Shown here in pieces: positions 39,265-48,224 of a stretch of DNA of 64,000 nt. Source of the stretch: Paenirhizobium selenitireducens ATCC BAA-1503 (GTDB lineage: Bacteria; Pseudomonadota; Alphaproteobacteria; Rhizobiales; Rhizobiaceae); assembly GCF_000518785.1 (NCBI RefSeq), contig NZ_JAEG01000007.1:124001-188000 (forward strand), in the 5' to 3' direction. The notes beneath the pieces are model-generated. The model made no database searches. It was not told where the DNA came from and saw nothing but the letters and a program-made list of their open reading frames with translations. Position 1 is the first letter of the stretch. The number at the start of each line of letters is the position of its first letter. The position numbers and the translations under genes were made by a program.

Positions 39265-39870
39265 TCAGAGCTTGGCGATGATCTTGCGCAGTTCCGCGTC
39301 GCGGGCCCCCAGCATCAGCACGTTCTTCAACGCTTCCTTGGGATCATGGGTGCGGAACAGAAGGCCGTTTTCTCGGATCGAGCGGTCGATCGCCATCGAC
39401 CGCGTCTCCTTGTCCGGATGGATTGCCACGGCAAAATACATGCGCGAATAGTTCGGCCGGATGTGCTTGAAGAACTGATCCGCGTCGCCCACCTCGGCAA
39501 AGAAGTTGGCGATGTAGAACGCCCATTTGACGTCGGCATATTTGGCGAAATTGGTTTTCGCCGCGGTCACGTGGCAATAGCCCAGATGCGGGCTGTTCTC
39601 CAGCGTCTTGTGGAAGATCTGCTTGGGAAACTGGATCGAGCGGTGAAAGCCGTTGATGTGCTTGTGGGTGGTCTCGCCTGCCGCTTCCAGCTTGCGCCCC
39701 GTGCGCTCCGCCACTTCCTCATAGGTGAGGTAGCGTTTTTCTTCCGCCAGCCAGTCCTCGCGATGGCGGGAAATGCGGCCGGTGCGCAGGAATTCGGTAT
39801 GCACGGCCTTGCCCGGCAGGCCGGGCTTGGCGCCGGGTTTGGAGGCGGCGAAATATCTCAGCTTCTGCAT
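39265..39870 (-). CDS. Conserved hypothetical protein
   Basis: Soluble protein of 201 residues that I do not recognise with confidence (possibly DUF6656). It has a basic N-terminus (KLRYFAASKPGAKPGLPGK), a helical part (LTYEEVAERTGRKLEAAGETT), an aromatic-rich central region (WAFYIANFFAEVGDADQFFKHI, MYFAVAIHPD) and ends LKNVLMLGARDAELRKIIAKL. There is no signal peptide, membrane helix or cysteine-rich motif. It is monocistronic, with about 300 bp of upstream DNA shared with the riboswitch transcription unit on the other strand. No function is assigned. Confidence 0.75.
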   Translation of the reverse strand: MQKLRYFAASKPGAKPGLPGKAVHTEFLRTGRISRHREDWLAEEKRYLTYEEVAERTGRKLEAAGETTHKHINGFHRSIQFPKQIFHKTLENSPHLGYCHVTAAKTNFAKYADVKWAFYIANFFAEVGDADQFFKHIRPNYSRMYFAVAIHPDKETRSMAIDRSIRENGLLFRTHDPKEALKNVLMLGARDAELRKIIAKL

Positions 39871-40180
39871 GTCGTGGCTCTGATCCTAAGGCCGTTGCGC
39901 CGATCATACGGCACCGAGATTAATGACATTTTGCCGCATCCTGACGCGCTTCGGTTTCGCGAGGCTTGCGGAAGCGATGTCGCAATCGGCGAAGCCCCTC
40001 TTGCTTGTCTCTTTGCGCCACCACTGCCGAGGGTCCCGCCACAATGAAAATTTACTCTTTTGAAAACACGATGTATTTTGCATTGTCGTGTTGATTGCGA
40101 GCAAGATCGCCGATGTCGCAAATGTTTGGGTCGGTGTCGTTTCGCAGTGCACCAGCGGATCTGCGACTGTGGTTAGATAG
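39871..40180. other. Gene-free divergent promoter region
   Basis: This 310-bp stretch lies between the minus-strand hypothetical gene and the plus-strand cobalamin riboswitch. No gene is visible. It should carry the promoters of both. An AT-richer part near 40050-40100 contains a hairpin with AACACGA and TCGTGTT arms. Confidence 0.5.
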
Positions 40181-40372
40181 GTGCGAACTCGAGGTGCCGC
40201 CCGGCTAGGGAAGGGTGGGAAATCGGGAAGCCGGTCGAATTCCGGCGCTGCCCCCGCAACGGTAGTGGAGAATGCGTGACGGCCAAAGACCACTGGGACA
40301 TCTGTCCTGGGAAGGTGCCGAACGCGGTCCGCAAGGATCATCTCCAGAGCCCGGAAACCAGCCTTTGAGAAG
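40181..40372 (+). ncRNA. Cobalamin (adenosylcobalamin) riboswitch
   Basis: The aptamer core is plain: GGTGCCG at the 5' side, GGGAAGCCGGT with AATTCCGGC, the invariant CTGCCCCCGCAACGGTA, then CCACTGGG, a variable stem with GGGAAGGTG, and the 3' B12-box AGCCCGGAAACCAGCC (40348-40363). All conserved blocks are in the right order and spacing for the B12 riboswitch. It is on the plus strand and ends about 115 bp before the gbcA ATG. B12 riboswitches turn genes off when cobalamin is abundant. The outer boundaries are approximate. Confidence 0.93.
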
Positions 40373-40446
40373 GAATTGGATTGACGGTCGCGGCGGGCGG
40401 CCCGAGACGGCTTTGTCCGGTGTCATGCGACGCCGTGGCCTTGCAT

Positions 40447-40484
40447 GTTCTCGATCTCCGTCACGGCAGAACGGATACGAGGAC
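40447..40484 (+). promoter_or_regulatory. Hairpin masking the gbcA ribosome binding site
   Basis: GTTCTCG (40447-40453) pairs with CGAGGAC (40478-40484), which holds the gbcA ribosome binding site AGGA. A second helix, TCCGT (40457-40461) with ACGGA (40471-40475), closes a 9-base loop. The ATG follows 4 bases after the stem. This has the form of a riboswitch expression platform acting on translation. No intrinsic terminator with a T-run was seen between riboswitch and gene. Confidence 0.65.
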
Positions 40485-40488
40485 GACA

Positions 40489-41733
40489 ATGGACTTGCAG
40501 AGCACGGTATTGCGGCAGTTGAAGAACCGCCGGGAAGGCTTCAGCCTCGAGCAGCCTTTCTACATCGACCAGGATTATTTCAAGCTCGACATGGAGACGA
40601 TCTGGTATCGCAACTGGCTGTTCGTCGGCCATGATTGCGAGATCCCGCGCGCCGGCAACTATTTCACCGCCCAGATCGGCGACTACCCGGTGGTGATCGT
40701 GCGCGGCAAGGATCAGGTGATCCGCGCTTTCCACAACACCTGCCGCCATCGCGGCCACCGCGTCTGCACCCAGGATCGCGGCGCCTCGGCCAAGCTGGTC
40801 TGCCCCTACCACCAGTGGACCTACGACCTTGACGGCTCGCTCGTCTTTGCCCGCCAGATGGGCGAAACCTTCGACAAGGCCGAATTCGGCCTGAAGCCGG
40901 TGCATTGCGAAAGCGTCGCCGGCTATATCTTCATCTGTCTCGCCAACGAGGCCGCCGATTTCGCCCCGGTGCGGGCGACGATCGAACCCTTCATGGCGCC
41001 GCATCGCCTGTCCGAAGCCAAGGTCGCTCACCGCAACACCATCATCGAGAAGGGCAATTGGAAGCTCGTCTGGGAAAACAACCGCGAGTGCTACCACTGC
41101 GCCGGCAACCATCCGGAACTCTGCCGCACCTATCCGGAAGCGCCGTCGGCCACCGGCGTGCAGGGCGCCAAGGACGATCCGGTGATCACCGAGCACTGGG
41201 CGCGCTGCGAAGCCGCCGGCCTGCCGTCGGAGTTCACCATGGATCCGTCCGGCCAGTTCCGCGTCGCCCGCATGCCGCTCATCCAGGACGCCGAGAGCTA
41301 CACCATGGACGGCAAGCCGGCGGTCAGGAAGCCGCTTTCGGGCGACGTCAACATTTCGCACATCGGCACCATGCTCCTGTTCCACTATCCGACCACCTGG
41401 AACCACATCCTCGGTGATCACGCGATTTCCTTCCGCGTCCTGCCGATCTCGGCCGAGGAAACCGCGGTCACGACCACCTGGCTGGTCCATAAGGATGCGG
41501 TCGAGGGTGTCGACTACGACGTCGACCAGCTTACCCATGTGTGGAACATGACCAACGACCAGGACCGCTCGATCGTCGAGGAAAACGCCTTCGGCATCCG
41601 CTCGCCGGCCTACGAGCCCGGACCCTATTCCGTCGACCACGAGGGCGGCGTAATGCAGTTCGTCGAATGGTATGCGAACTTCATGGTGAGCCGCCTCCAG
41701 GGCGACAAGGCCCGTCTGTCGGCGGTGGCGTGA
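40489..41733 (+). CDS. gbcA: Glycine betaine demethylase, Rieske oxygenase subunit
   Basis: Ring-hydroxylating-type oxygenase of 414 residues resembling GbcA, which converts glycine betaine to dimethylglycine and formaldehyde. The Rieske [2Fe-2S] ligands are in CRHRGHRVC and CPYHQWTYDLDG. The mononuclear iron site is in NNRECYHCAGNHPELC with a later Asp. Features favouring GbcA over aromatic dioxygenases are WLFVGHDCEIPRAGNYFTAQIGDYPVV and the pairing with a GbcB-like reductase. ATG 40489 follows GAGGAC. A cobalamin riboswitch and a site-masking hairpin precede the gene, so it is expected to be repressed by B12. Other trimethylammonium substrates, such as stachydrine or carnitine, cannot be excluded. 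Confidence 0.88.
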   Translation: MDLQSTVLRQLKNRREGFSLEQPFYIDQDYFKLDMETIWYRNWLFVGHDCEIPRAGNYFTAQIGDYPVVIVRGKDQVIRAFHNTCRHRGHRVCTQDRGASAKLVCPYHQWTYDLDGSLVFARQMGETFDKAEFGLKPVHCESVAGYIFICLANEAADFAPVRATIEPFMAPHRLSEAKVAHRNTIIEKGNWKLVWENNRECYHCAGNHPELCRTYPEAPSATGVQGAKDDPVITEHWARCEAAGLPSEFTMDPSGQFRVARMPLIQDAESYTMDGKPAVRKPLSGDVNISHIGTMLLFHYPTTWNHILGDHAISFRVLPISAEETAVTTTWLVHKDAVEGVDYDVDQLTHVWNMTNDQDRSIVEENAFGIRSPAYEPGPYSVDHEGGVMQFVEWYANFMVSRLQGDKARLSAVA

Positions 41734-41734
41734 G

Positions 41735-42820
41735 ATGAACATCGCTCTCCCCAGCTACCGCCATGTCGACGAGATGCGCCCGTGGTCCGACCGGGAGCAC
41801 AGGCTCGAATGCGTCGCCGTCACGCCCGAAGCCCCGGACGTGATGACCTTCACCTTCCGCCCGGACCGGCCGGGCCACTGGTTCCGCTACCAGCCGGGCC
41901 AGTTCGTCACGCTGGAGATCCCGGTCGGGCCGGAGCCGGTGATGCGCACCTACACGCTCTCGTCCAGCCCCTCGCGCCCCTATACGGTGGCCGTCACCGT
42001 CAAGGCGCAGAAGGATTCGATCGGCACGCGTTGGATGTTCGATCACCTGAAGCCCGGCATGCAGCTGAAGGCGATCGGCCCGCTCGGCGACTTCTCCTAT
42101 GCCCGCCATCCCGGCAGCAAGTACCTGTTCGTCTCGGCCGGCTCGGGCATCACGCCGATGGTGTCGATGACGCGCGATCTCTCGGATCGCCAGCCGGATT
42201 CGGACATCGCCTTCCTGCATTGCGCCCGCTCGCCCGACGACATCATCTTCCGCTGGGAGCTTGAGGCGAAGGCACGGGAAATGCCGAAGTTCACCCTCGG
42301 CTTCATCATCGAGCAATTGACGCACGGTCAGCTCTGGTCGGGCCTCAAGGGCCGGATCGACAAGGCGAAGATCGCGCTGCTCGCGCCCGACTTCCTCGAT
42401 CGCACGGTGTTCTGCTGCGGGCCCGAGCCGTTCATGGCGACGGTGCGGGAATCGCTCGCCAGCGCCGGCTTCGACATGGCGAACTATCACGAGGAGACGT
42501 TTCAGCCCGCCAAGCCGCAGCCGCCGGTGGTGGTTGCCGATCACGGCGGCGAGGCCAAGGCGACGAGGGTTGCCTTCGCCATGTCCGGCAAGGAGGGTTT
42601 CTGTGAACCCGGCCATACGATCCTGCAGGCGGCGCGGGCCTCCGGCGTGCGCATCGGGGCTGCCTGCGAATCCGGCCTGTGCGGCACCTGCAAGGTGATG
42701 AAGCTCTCCGGCGAGGTCGAGATGGACCACAATGGCGGCATCCTCGACGACGAGATCGACGAGGGTTACATCCTCGCCTGCTGTTCGCGGCCGAAGGGCG
42801 ATGTCGAGATCGAAGCCTGA
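41735..42820 (+). CDS. gbcB: Glycine betaine demethylase reductase subunit
   Basis: Electron-transfer partner of GbcA, 361 residues. It has an FAD-binding ferredoxin-reductase domain (HWFRYQPGQFVTLEIPV, RTYTLSSSPSRPY), an NAD-binding domain (YLFVSAGSGITPMVSM and FCCGPEPFMATV) and a C-terminal plant-type [2Fe-2S] ferredoxin domain with CESGLCGTCKVMKLSGEV and a final Cys in ILACCSRP. This order (reductase then ferredoxin) is that of GbcB. It begins two bases after the gbcA stop, in the same B12-regulated operon. Confidence 0.9.
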   Translation: MNIALPSYRHVDEMRPWSDREHRLECVAVTPEAPDVMTFTFRPDRPGHWFRYQPGQFVTLEIPVGPEPVMRTYTLSSSPSRPYTVAVTVKAQKDSIGTRWMFDHLKPGMQLKAIGPLGDFSYARHPGSKYLFVSAGSGITPMVSMTRDLSDRQPDSDIAFLHCARSPDDIIFRWELEAKAREMPKFTLGFIIEQLTHGQLWSGLKGRIDKAKIALLAPDFLDRTVFCCGPEPFMATVRESLASAGFDMANYHEETFQPAKPQPPVVVADHGGEAKATRVAFAMSGKEGFCEPGHTILQAARASGVRIGAACESGLCGTCKVMKLSGEVEMDHNGGILDDEIDEGYILACCSRPKGDVEIEA

Positions 42821-47153: not shown

Positions 47154-48224
47154 TCAAAGGAGCGATCTTGCCACGGAGCAGATGCAGATAAGGACGAAGC
47201 TGGTCGGCACGCTGTAGCGGATATTGTCGCGGATGGCGGTTTCGAGATGCGGGTAGCGATGCTTGCCCGGGAAGTTCGAGTACACCAGGATGATGTTCAA
47301 CAGCAGCACGAAGACGAGATAGAAATAGCCGAGCGAGACCATGAAGGCGACCGGCGAATTCATCGAGATCGAGCCCGGAAAGCTCGATTCGTAGGTAAAG
47401 CTCAGCGCGGCGAGCGCCAAGAGCGCCGAATAGGTCATCGGCGCCTTGTCGCCGAGAAGCTTTTCCGGTGCCCACAGGATGAACAGCGACACCGAGAGCA
47501 CGGCGACGAACGGAATGAAGATCGGCAACAGATAATAAGGCCATTGCCGTTCGATCACCGTCGAGGCCTTGATGCGCACGAAGGGCTTGGCGTTCCAGCC
47601 ATGGAAGCGCTCCATGACGAACTGCAGCGACCGCGCCGTCCAGTTGGTGGCGGAAAGCTCCTCGGCGACCGACGACAGTTCCCGGTCGATGTCGTTCATC
47701 ACGAAGATCACCTCGTCGGCCGAATGACGCGGCGTCACGAAGGACAAGGTGAGCTTCTGCCGGTCGAACGGGAAGGTCGTCATGTCGACGTCGACGCGGA
47801 AATCCGCGTCAAGCCGGCGAATGCGCGTCACGGTGCCGTCGGCGCGCAGCGAAAGTGACACCGAGCCCGAGCGCGGTTTGCTGATCTGGTTCTCGATCTC
47901 GGTTCCTGGCGTCCACATCTCGGCGAGCTTGGCCTCGGCATCGGCTCCCACATGGTCGAAGCGGCCGAAGCCCGTCACCTTCGGGTCGAAGGCCTGGCCG
48001 GGGTCCGTCCAGCGTTCGGTGATCTCTACCATCATAGAGGCTTCCCCGGCGGTCTCGCTGAGCCTCGAGAGGCTGAGCACCCGCATGGAGAAGTGCACGG
48101 GCAGGGGAAGATGGATGCCGGACGGCAGCGGCCGCGCGGTCTCCTCGGCGCAAGCGGATCCCGCGATCGCCAGCCACCCGGACAGGAGAAGCAGGCCGAG
48201 GCTTCGGACGAACCGCGCCGTCAC
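47154..48224 (-). CDS. Pentameric ligand-gated ion channel (prokaryotic Cys-loop-like receptor)
   Basis: Protein of 356 residues. A signal peptide (LGLLLLSGWLAIAGSACA) precedes a beta-rich extracellular domain with the pro-loop signature TTFPFDRQKLTLSF. Three strong helices follow: WPYYLLPIFIPFVAVLSVSL (M1), YSALLALAALSFTYES (M2, pore lining) and AFMVSLGYFYLVFVLLLNII (M3). A shorter M4 (YSVPTSFVLICICSVA) ends the protein. Layout and length match GLIC and ELIC. The pro-loop lacks the cysteine pair of animal receptors, as in all bacterial members. The GTG start overlaps the stop of the upstream Cache-HAMP gene (GTGA), so the two are translationally coupled. Ligand and ion selectivity are unknown. 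Confidence 0.92.
   Translation of the reverse strand: MTARFVRSLGLLLLSGWLAIAGSACAEETARPLPSGIHLPLPVHFSMRVLSLSRLSETAGEASMMVEITERWTDPGQAFDPKVTGFGRFDHVGADAEAKLAEMWTPGTEIENQISKPRSGSVSLSLRADGTVTRIRRLDADFRVDVDMTTFPFDRQKLTLSFVTPRHSADEVIFVMNDIDRELSSVAEELSATNWTARSLQFVMERFHGWNAKPFVRIKASTVIERQWPYYLLPIFIPFVAVLSVSLFILWAPEKLLGDKAPMTYSALLALAALSFTYESSFPGSISMNSPVAFMVSLGYFYLVFVLLLNIILVYSNFPGKHRYPHLETAIRDNIRYSVPTSFVLICICSVARSLL

Follow-up and report, generated by a model that had tools for sequence, protein, structure and literature searches.

We analyzed a window of 64,000 nucleotides from Paenirhizobium selenitireducens ATCC BAA-1503 (contig NZ_JAEG01000007.1, positions 124,001 to 188,000), in which a complete cobalamin riboswitch aptamer precedes an operon encoding a GbcAB-like demethylase, i.e., a Rieske oxygenase and its reductase. 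We propose that at this locus cobalamin controls an isozyme switch for betaine demethylation, similar to the metE/metH switch, and we put the probability of this reading at roughly three in four. The same genome carries a module for corrinoid-dependent methyl transfer, and in related genomes the riboswitch co-occurs with the B12-dependent counterpart, a methyltransferase of the MTTB family.

In the proposed mechanism, plentiful adenosylcobalamin would bind the aptamer, the leader would mask the ribosome-binding site and the O2- and NADH-dependent GbcAB-like demethylase would be turned off. Betaine would in such B12-replete cells be demethylated via MtgB, MtgC, and MtgD, with the methyl group passed to tetrahydrofolate and, through MtgE, to homocysteine. 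With little cobalamin available, the corrinoid route would fail and repression would be lifted, and the Rieske enzyme would remove the methyl group as formaldehyde. Low B12 is hence expected to raise demethylation.

Co-occurrence of riboswitch and corrinoid enzyme

The genome of the window was found to contain at least six cobalamin riboswitches, with 150 of 386 candidates scored. Directly behind the other five are genes for CbiM, CbtA, a nitroreductase-family protein that is presumably BluB, a DBI-phosphoribosyltransferase of the CobT type, and CobU-CobW-CobN. Only the demethylase target falls outside cobalt and B12 supply among the six found. One MTTB-family methyltransferase (781 bits, no in-frame stop) is encoded in the genome. 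Against solved structures it scored 1053 bits with 4yyc, 431.1 with 2qne, and 427.9 with 9yce, the last of which carries the name "Glycine betaine methyltransferase". Within the same 19.9 kb as its gene we identified a corrinoid protein with both B12-binding domains, a methyl-tetrahydrofolate:corrinoid methyltransferase and a betaine--homocysteine methyltransferase with model scores above cut-off (391 vs. 259 bits and 571 vs. 338 bits, respectively), and an MTHFR-domain protein. Judged by domains and models, an MtgBCDE-type module with members of the MtgB, MtgC, MtgD, and MtgE types thus appears to be present. MtgBCDE of Ruegeria pomeroyi likewise has MTTB, corrinoid, methyl-tetrahydrofolate, and homocysteine modules, and the corrinoid betaine route is experimentally supported in Ruegeria (PMC12478193; here and below, papers given by PMC number are cited for the passages used).

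A DUF1638 protein is encoded next to the corrinoid and MTTB genes (L125:7058-8050, minus strand, contig C1 of the window genome) and is a possible partner in corrinoid methyl transfer.

Riboswitches in other genomes were called with a covariance model, R1, built from 21 training sequences picked by core motifs; weak matches that lay inside genes and scored at most 16 bits were left out of the counts. In the survey of the family the prediction was set before the MTTB states were known, that of the window genome excepted, while the motif result had already been seen for 30 of the 120 genes. Orthologues were taken as proteins of at least 66% identity and were found in 120 of 297 family genomes, the next intact matches reaching at most 57%. 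The upstream stretch was 600 bp for 90 of the 120. Genome G245 was left out with a broken copy at a contig end (60% over 319 residues, two in-frame stops), the 176 bp upstream of which hold a cut-off partial riboswitch match of 22.3 bits. With at most four candidates scored per genome, MTTB was found in 218 of the 297.

A riboswitch was located ahead of the demethylase in 85 of the 120 family orthologues, and the pairing described in an earlier note on this DNA is thereby conserved in relatives. Both riboswitch and MTTB were present in 81 genomes and neither in 33, while four had the riboswitch only (genus g95) and two had MTTB only (genus g103; Fisher p 1e-22, uncorrected for descent). The B12-dependent counterpart was accordingly found in 81 of 85 riboswitch-bearing genomes, the other four being from one genus with a weak aptamer. 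In the window's genus, both are present in G000 and G237 and both absent from G107 and G289; in genus g48, both are present in G047 and G140 and both absent from G204. The family riboswitches, which were not motif-picked, scored at least 105 bits with R1 in 80 of 85 cases.

An orthologue scan of named genomes gave 80 loci, 54 of them with a riboswitch just upstream according to R1. First calls had been made by three motif patterns, of which L064 and L033 each matched one; the covariance model recovered a riboswitch at L064 and not at L033. Rfam, applied to 13 of the 27 loci without full motifs, found a single riboswitch, that of L064. Fifty of the 80 genomes were chosen for an MTTB search when the motif result was known but the outcome for MTTB was not, and MTTB was found in 25. 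Riboswitch and MTTB agreed in 48 of the 50 (24 both, 24 neither, one MTTB only, one riboswitch only). The named and family sets are not independent samples, since they overlap; for example, the genome of L069, G342, and G179 show identical MTTB coordinates.

At two of the named loci a second match resembling a cobalamin riboswitch lies close downstream of the operon (L018:7773-7932, minus strand, 129.9 bits; L068:7794-7962, plus strand, 33.8 bits).

To correct for descent the states were placed on a tree of GbcA proteins with 117 rows, on which the riboswitch requires 12 changes and MTTB 10. On supported branches there were eight independent pairs, of which on average 6.6 differed the same way, 1.4 showed no difference and none differed oppositely (sign test, median p 0.016, range 0.016-0.06). 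With a 77-row tree, the median p was 0.0625 in one direction and 0.125 in the other. For the 117-row tree, itself a quick tree, 40 rows were added by hand-picking across genera, discordant ones among them.

We re-examined 52 family genomes, comprising the 33 with neither element, the 6 discordant ones, and 13 of the 81 with both. An orthologue of the corrinoid protein was found in all 13 of the latter (89-100% identity) and in both g103 genomes (79%). With all candidates scored, none was found in the 33 genomes with neither element or in the four of g95, and since the corrinoid protein is missing there as well, the MTTB negatives are supported. The remaining matches were either long MetH-like frames at 33-37% or weak.

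Outside the family, 29 new loci were obtained from 289 genomes of the class, and 20 of these were scanned with Rfam. Three had a riboswitch before the GbcA-like gene, i.e., L297 (67% identical to the window protein), L300 (50%), and L301 (48%). Their scores with the GbcA model were 509, 636, and 653 bits, respectively, against a cut-off of 670. L300 and L301 form a clade of their own, and each has a GbcB-like gene behind it (457 and 446 bits, respectively, against 500). MTTB and the corrinoid protein (78-83%) were found in the genomes of all three.

The leader and the demethylase operon

The features of the locus are given in Table 1. That a complete B12 aptamer stands ahead of a betaine-type demethylase operon, as the earlier note had claimed, was borne out by the covariance scan that it had proposed: RF00174 exceeded the Rfam gathering score of 31.5 bits and was the sole match at gathering threshold in the whole window. 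The span given for the locus (40181-42820) was correct within a few bases. The RF00174 core was kept in an alignment of 21 homologous sequences, partly by construction, since these sequences were picked by core motifs.

Table 1. Features of the riboswitch leader and the GbcAB-like operon, in window positions.
Feature	Position	Strand	Basis or remark
Cobalamin riboswitch aptamer RF00174, complete	40175..40381	+	Rfam scan, 92.4 bits, E 1.2e-21, model 1-189/189
Hairpin immediately behind the aptamer, with a stem of 6 bp and the 5-nt loop GGCGG	40386..40402	+	presumed part of the expression platform
Hairpin GTTCTCG / CGAGGAC, predicted to mask the ribosome-binding site	40447..40484	+	fold prediction
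Shine-Dalgarno sequence GAGGA, 5 nt ahead of ATG	40479..40483	+	sequence
GbcA-like Rieske oxygenase, 414 aa, quaternary-amine demethylase class	40489..41733	+	model, domains, structure matches
GbcB-like reductase, 361 aa, with FAD, NAD, and 2Fe-2S ferredoxin domains	41735..42820	+	GbcB model, Pfam

The aptamer ends 107 nt ahead of the ATG of the first gene (position 40489). Across 29 sequences the six predicted pairs of the hairpin next to the aptamer showed three broken cells in total, and two of the pairs had two-sided changes that keep the pairing (in 12 and 5 sequences). In the last 70 nt of the window leader the Shine-Dalgarno sequence was predicted to be paired with a probability of 1.0, and the GTTCTCG / CGAGGAC stem recurred in the fold of the 166-nt leader. 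The ribosome-binding site was predicted to be paired with a mean probability of at least 0.75 in 23 of 29 leaders, with a minimum of 0.46; both pairing predictions were made without shuffle comparison. No terminator-like or sigma-70-like site was found in 39880-40620. Because no terminator-like site lies between aptamer and gene, control at the level of translation is preferred, and we infer that the leader responds to cobalamin by hiding the ribosome-binding site, so that translation of the demethylase operon would be repressed.

The best NCBIfam models for the two proteins were GbcA (NF058607, 522.8 bits) for the oxygenase and GbcB (NF058606, 369.1 bits) for the reductase. Both scores are below the respective cut-offs of 670 and 500 bits, and equivalog status is therefore unproven. 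Of the gbcA-gbcB naming in the earlier note the family resemblance stands: "GbcAB-like" is a safe name, whereas "gbcAB" as a proven equivalog is not supported. The likeness to GbcAB of Pseudomonas and Chromohalobacter consists of the two-gene operon type and the best-matching models. The window proteins differ from them in scoring under both cut-offs, and the clade of the window oxygenase is separate from the near-GbcA proteins L300 and L301. Glycine betaine is probably the substrate of both the Rieske enzyme and the MTTB-type enzyme.

In Pfam the oxygenase has a Rieske and a ring-hydroxylating alpha domain. The nearest solved structures were 3n0q, 4qup, and 3vca, the last of which we take to be the stachydrine demethylase Stc2. 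The model, domain, and structure searches for the oxygenase were carried out with a longer frame starting at 40381. Stc2 of S. meliloti is a solved group V enzyme, and a Cys-X-X-Cys beside the catalytic iron site marks some of the quaternary-amine (group V) Rieske oxygenases (PMC10952381). By eye, the window oxygenase has such a motif near the iron ligands, ECYHC, in the translation as well as in the aligned structures. There was no second close match to the oxygenase in the window genome, where the other match was weak (26% over 86 residues). The nearest named relatives by the oxygenase were from Ciceribacter and Rhizobium, together with one metagenome-assembled genome labelled Arenimonas.

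Eight homologues in the family with at most 57% identity lacked the riboswitch (0 of 8), although MTTB was present in seven of their eight genomes. They form one Stc2-type clade. The one compared, L326, matched 3vca at 796 bits. The window oxygenase belongs to the same Rieske group as Stc2, while its match to 3vca was 518 bits. The window oxygenase thus does not group with the Stc2-like proteins, standing in a separate clade on the tree.

Upstream of the riboswitch a divergent gene (39265-39870, minus strand) encodes a DUF6656 protein (351.8 bits). Further along the window, a 356-aa frame at 47154-48224 (minus strand) has a neurotransmitter-gated ion-channel ligand-binding domain (PF02931, 58.8 bits) and is a candidate for a bacterial Cys-loop-type channel.

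Exceptions and competing explanations

Several observations weigh against the proposed switch. A weak riboswitch without MTTB was found in the four loci of genus g95 (L163, L165, L169, L171) and, in the named set, in Leaf371 (L064). These aptamers scored 56-61 Rfam bits, and that of L163, the g95 example aligned, was without the CCACTG and GGGAAGG elements; possibly they represent riboswitches decaying after loss of the partner enzyme. Genome G061 has MTTB yet a weak, partly changed aptamer (68.8 bits). MTTB without a riboswitch was found in C. lividus (L017) and in genus g103 (G102 and G174). Outside the family, 11 of 17 riboswitch-free loci lie in MTTB-bearing genomes; two of the 11, L298 and L299, were covered by the tree and group with the Stc2-type clade. 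Nine of the 33 family genomes with neither element were also without CbiC, so that loss of B12 synthesis partly runs along with absence of the riboswitch. Once corrected for descent, the support for the association is modest. The oxygenase scores under the GbcA cut-off, and glycine betaine is its presumed substrate. Finally, the fold energy of the 166-nt leader is ordinary relative to shuffles (z -0.23), and the predicted pairing of the ribosome-binding site lacks a comparison of this kind.

In the g103 genomes G102 and G174, two CbiC matches were found along with MTTB and the corrinoid protein, and the MetH activation domain was not found. As a guess, these genomes may depend on a split corrinoid methionine synthase, which would account for the absent riboswitch.

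The same isozyme logic might serve another quaternary amine, matched to the substrate of the MTTB enzyme. The score of the oxygenase below the GbcA cut-off would fit this, as would the place of the presumed Stc2 structure among its nearest solved relatives (for Stc2 as a stachydrine demethylase, PMC10952381) and the differences in substrate between MTTB-family enzymes (PMC12478193). We consider it unlikely, given that the Stc2-type homologues make up a clade of their own in which no riboswitch was found, and that two riboswitch loci elsewhere, L300 and L301, come nearly to the GbcA cut-off.

The 52 re-examined genomes bear on two further explanations. Every one of them, including all 33 with neither element, has at least one cobalamin riboswitch somewhere. 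The MetH activation domain was found in 50 of the 52, again with all 33 included; the two without it are those of g103. CbiC was found in 43 of the 52 and in 24 of the 33. Where the corrinoid betaine module is lacking, genomes thus retain the demethylase and the use of B12 and do without the riboswitch.

It could be argued that the riboswitch rescues methionine or one-carbon metabolism, i.e., that with MetH stalled for want of B12, oxidative demethylation is a source of one-carbon units or relieves methionine synthesis linked to betaine. A corrinoid core is common to betaine demethylation and the synthesis of methionine (PMC12478193), and a gene of the betaine--homocysteine methyltransferase type is part of the module. 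A rescue of MetH predicts a riboswitch in the MetH-bearing genomes with neither element, and since none was found there ahead of the demethylase, we regard this explanation as improbable. The earlier note had suggested that betaine use is coupled to B12 supply, with low B12 raising the breakdown of betaine and so making glycine and methyl groups available to corrin synthesis. Betaine feeding stimulates the output of industrial B12 fermentation (PMC8123684), and the window genome has the B12-synthesis genes CobN and CbiC. This purpose is unsupported and quite improbable, because it predicts a riboswitch in every B12-making genome with the demethylase and is contradicted by the 24 genomes with CbiC and demethylase but no riboswitch; nor would it lead one to expect the association with MTTB and the corrinoid protein. 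Both explanations were set aside on the evidence of the genomes with neither element. The usual control of a B12-independent isozyme, which the earlier note had passed over, is the better fit, as the riboswitch tracks MTTB and the corrinoid protein.

In three genomes a cobalamin riboswitch was located near the presumed start of a MetH-sized gene on the same strand (G075:C28:148339-148555, G219:C1:1933659-1933874, G145:C30:68502-68717). A B12 riboswitch on a B12-dependent methionine synthase would be odd; the positions of the gene starts are approximate.

Passive inheritance of an ancestral riboswitch that has no present role and drifts away together with other B12 genes is very improbable: riboswitch and MTTB are both clustered on the tree and the aptamers of g95 and G061 are weak, but the independent pairs change together and never oppositely, most family riboswitches score high with R1, and the weak g95 aptamers coincide with missing MTTB and corrinoid protein.

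Relation to known switches and to betaine use

The cobalamin-controlled isozyme switch proposed here resembles that of metE, where a cobalamin aptamer is found on the B12-independent methionine synthase in genomes that also have metH (PMC9600662). In both cases the aptamer stands before a B12-independent enzyme where the B12-dependent one coexists. The window pair differs in being catabolic, with a Rieske demethylase and an MTTB-type corrinoid methyltransferase. "Isozymes of B12-dependent enzymes" form a category in PMC3766115, in the main text of which the word "betaine" is absent.

A cobalamin riboswitch upstream of S. meliloti smc00982 was listed by 2007 (PMC2245857) and also appears in Table 3 of PMC2573895. 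The gene has been described as "likely encoding a dioxygenase" (PMC2848018). From the strand layout, smc00982 is probably the orthologous locus. The passages found on this riboswitch give no reason for the pairing and no link to betaine or MtgB. In the passages used of the work on Ruegeria pomeroyi, GbcAB is presented as the route of other bacteria and not as a B12-controlled backup, and "riboswitch" occurs once, in a reference title (PMC12478193). No explanation of the pairing of a cobalamin riboswitch with a betaine demethylase was found in the titles and opening abstracts searched, subscription literature being mostly outside that search. A comparative study by Rodionov and colleagues in 2003 reportedly named B12-regulated genes "ardX-frdX", which may be this operon; such a prediction would lower the claim to novelty. 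What may be new is the application of isozyme logic to betaine demethylation, while the metE/metH switch and the listing of the smc00982 riboswitch were known.

A wider claim, in which our confidence is only a little better than even, is that riboswitches set the balance of a catabolic pair of B12-dependent and B12-independent enzymes, with the methyl groups of betaine either reaching folate and methionine by way of a corrinoid or being oxidized with O2 to formaldehyde. Selection would have kept this arrangement across Rhizobiaceae-type bacteria, and other families of the class would have it too, on operons close to GbcAB. A catabolic pair would in that case join the known B12 isozyme switches and, if smc00982 is orthologous, there would be a reason for a riboswitch that has been on lists since at least 2007. 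MtgBCDE of S. meliloti is co-located with a B12-synthesis operon, and a second glycine betaine route in this species, noted by Barra et al., has been ascribed to MtgBCD (PMC12478193); the isozyme switch may bear on that route. If the switch operates as proposed, B12 supply would decide how soil and plant bacteria use betaine.

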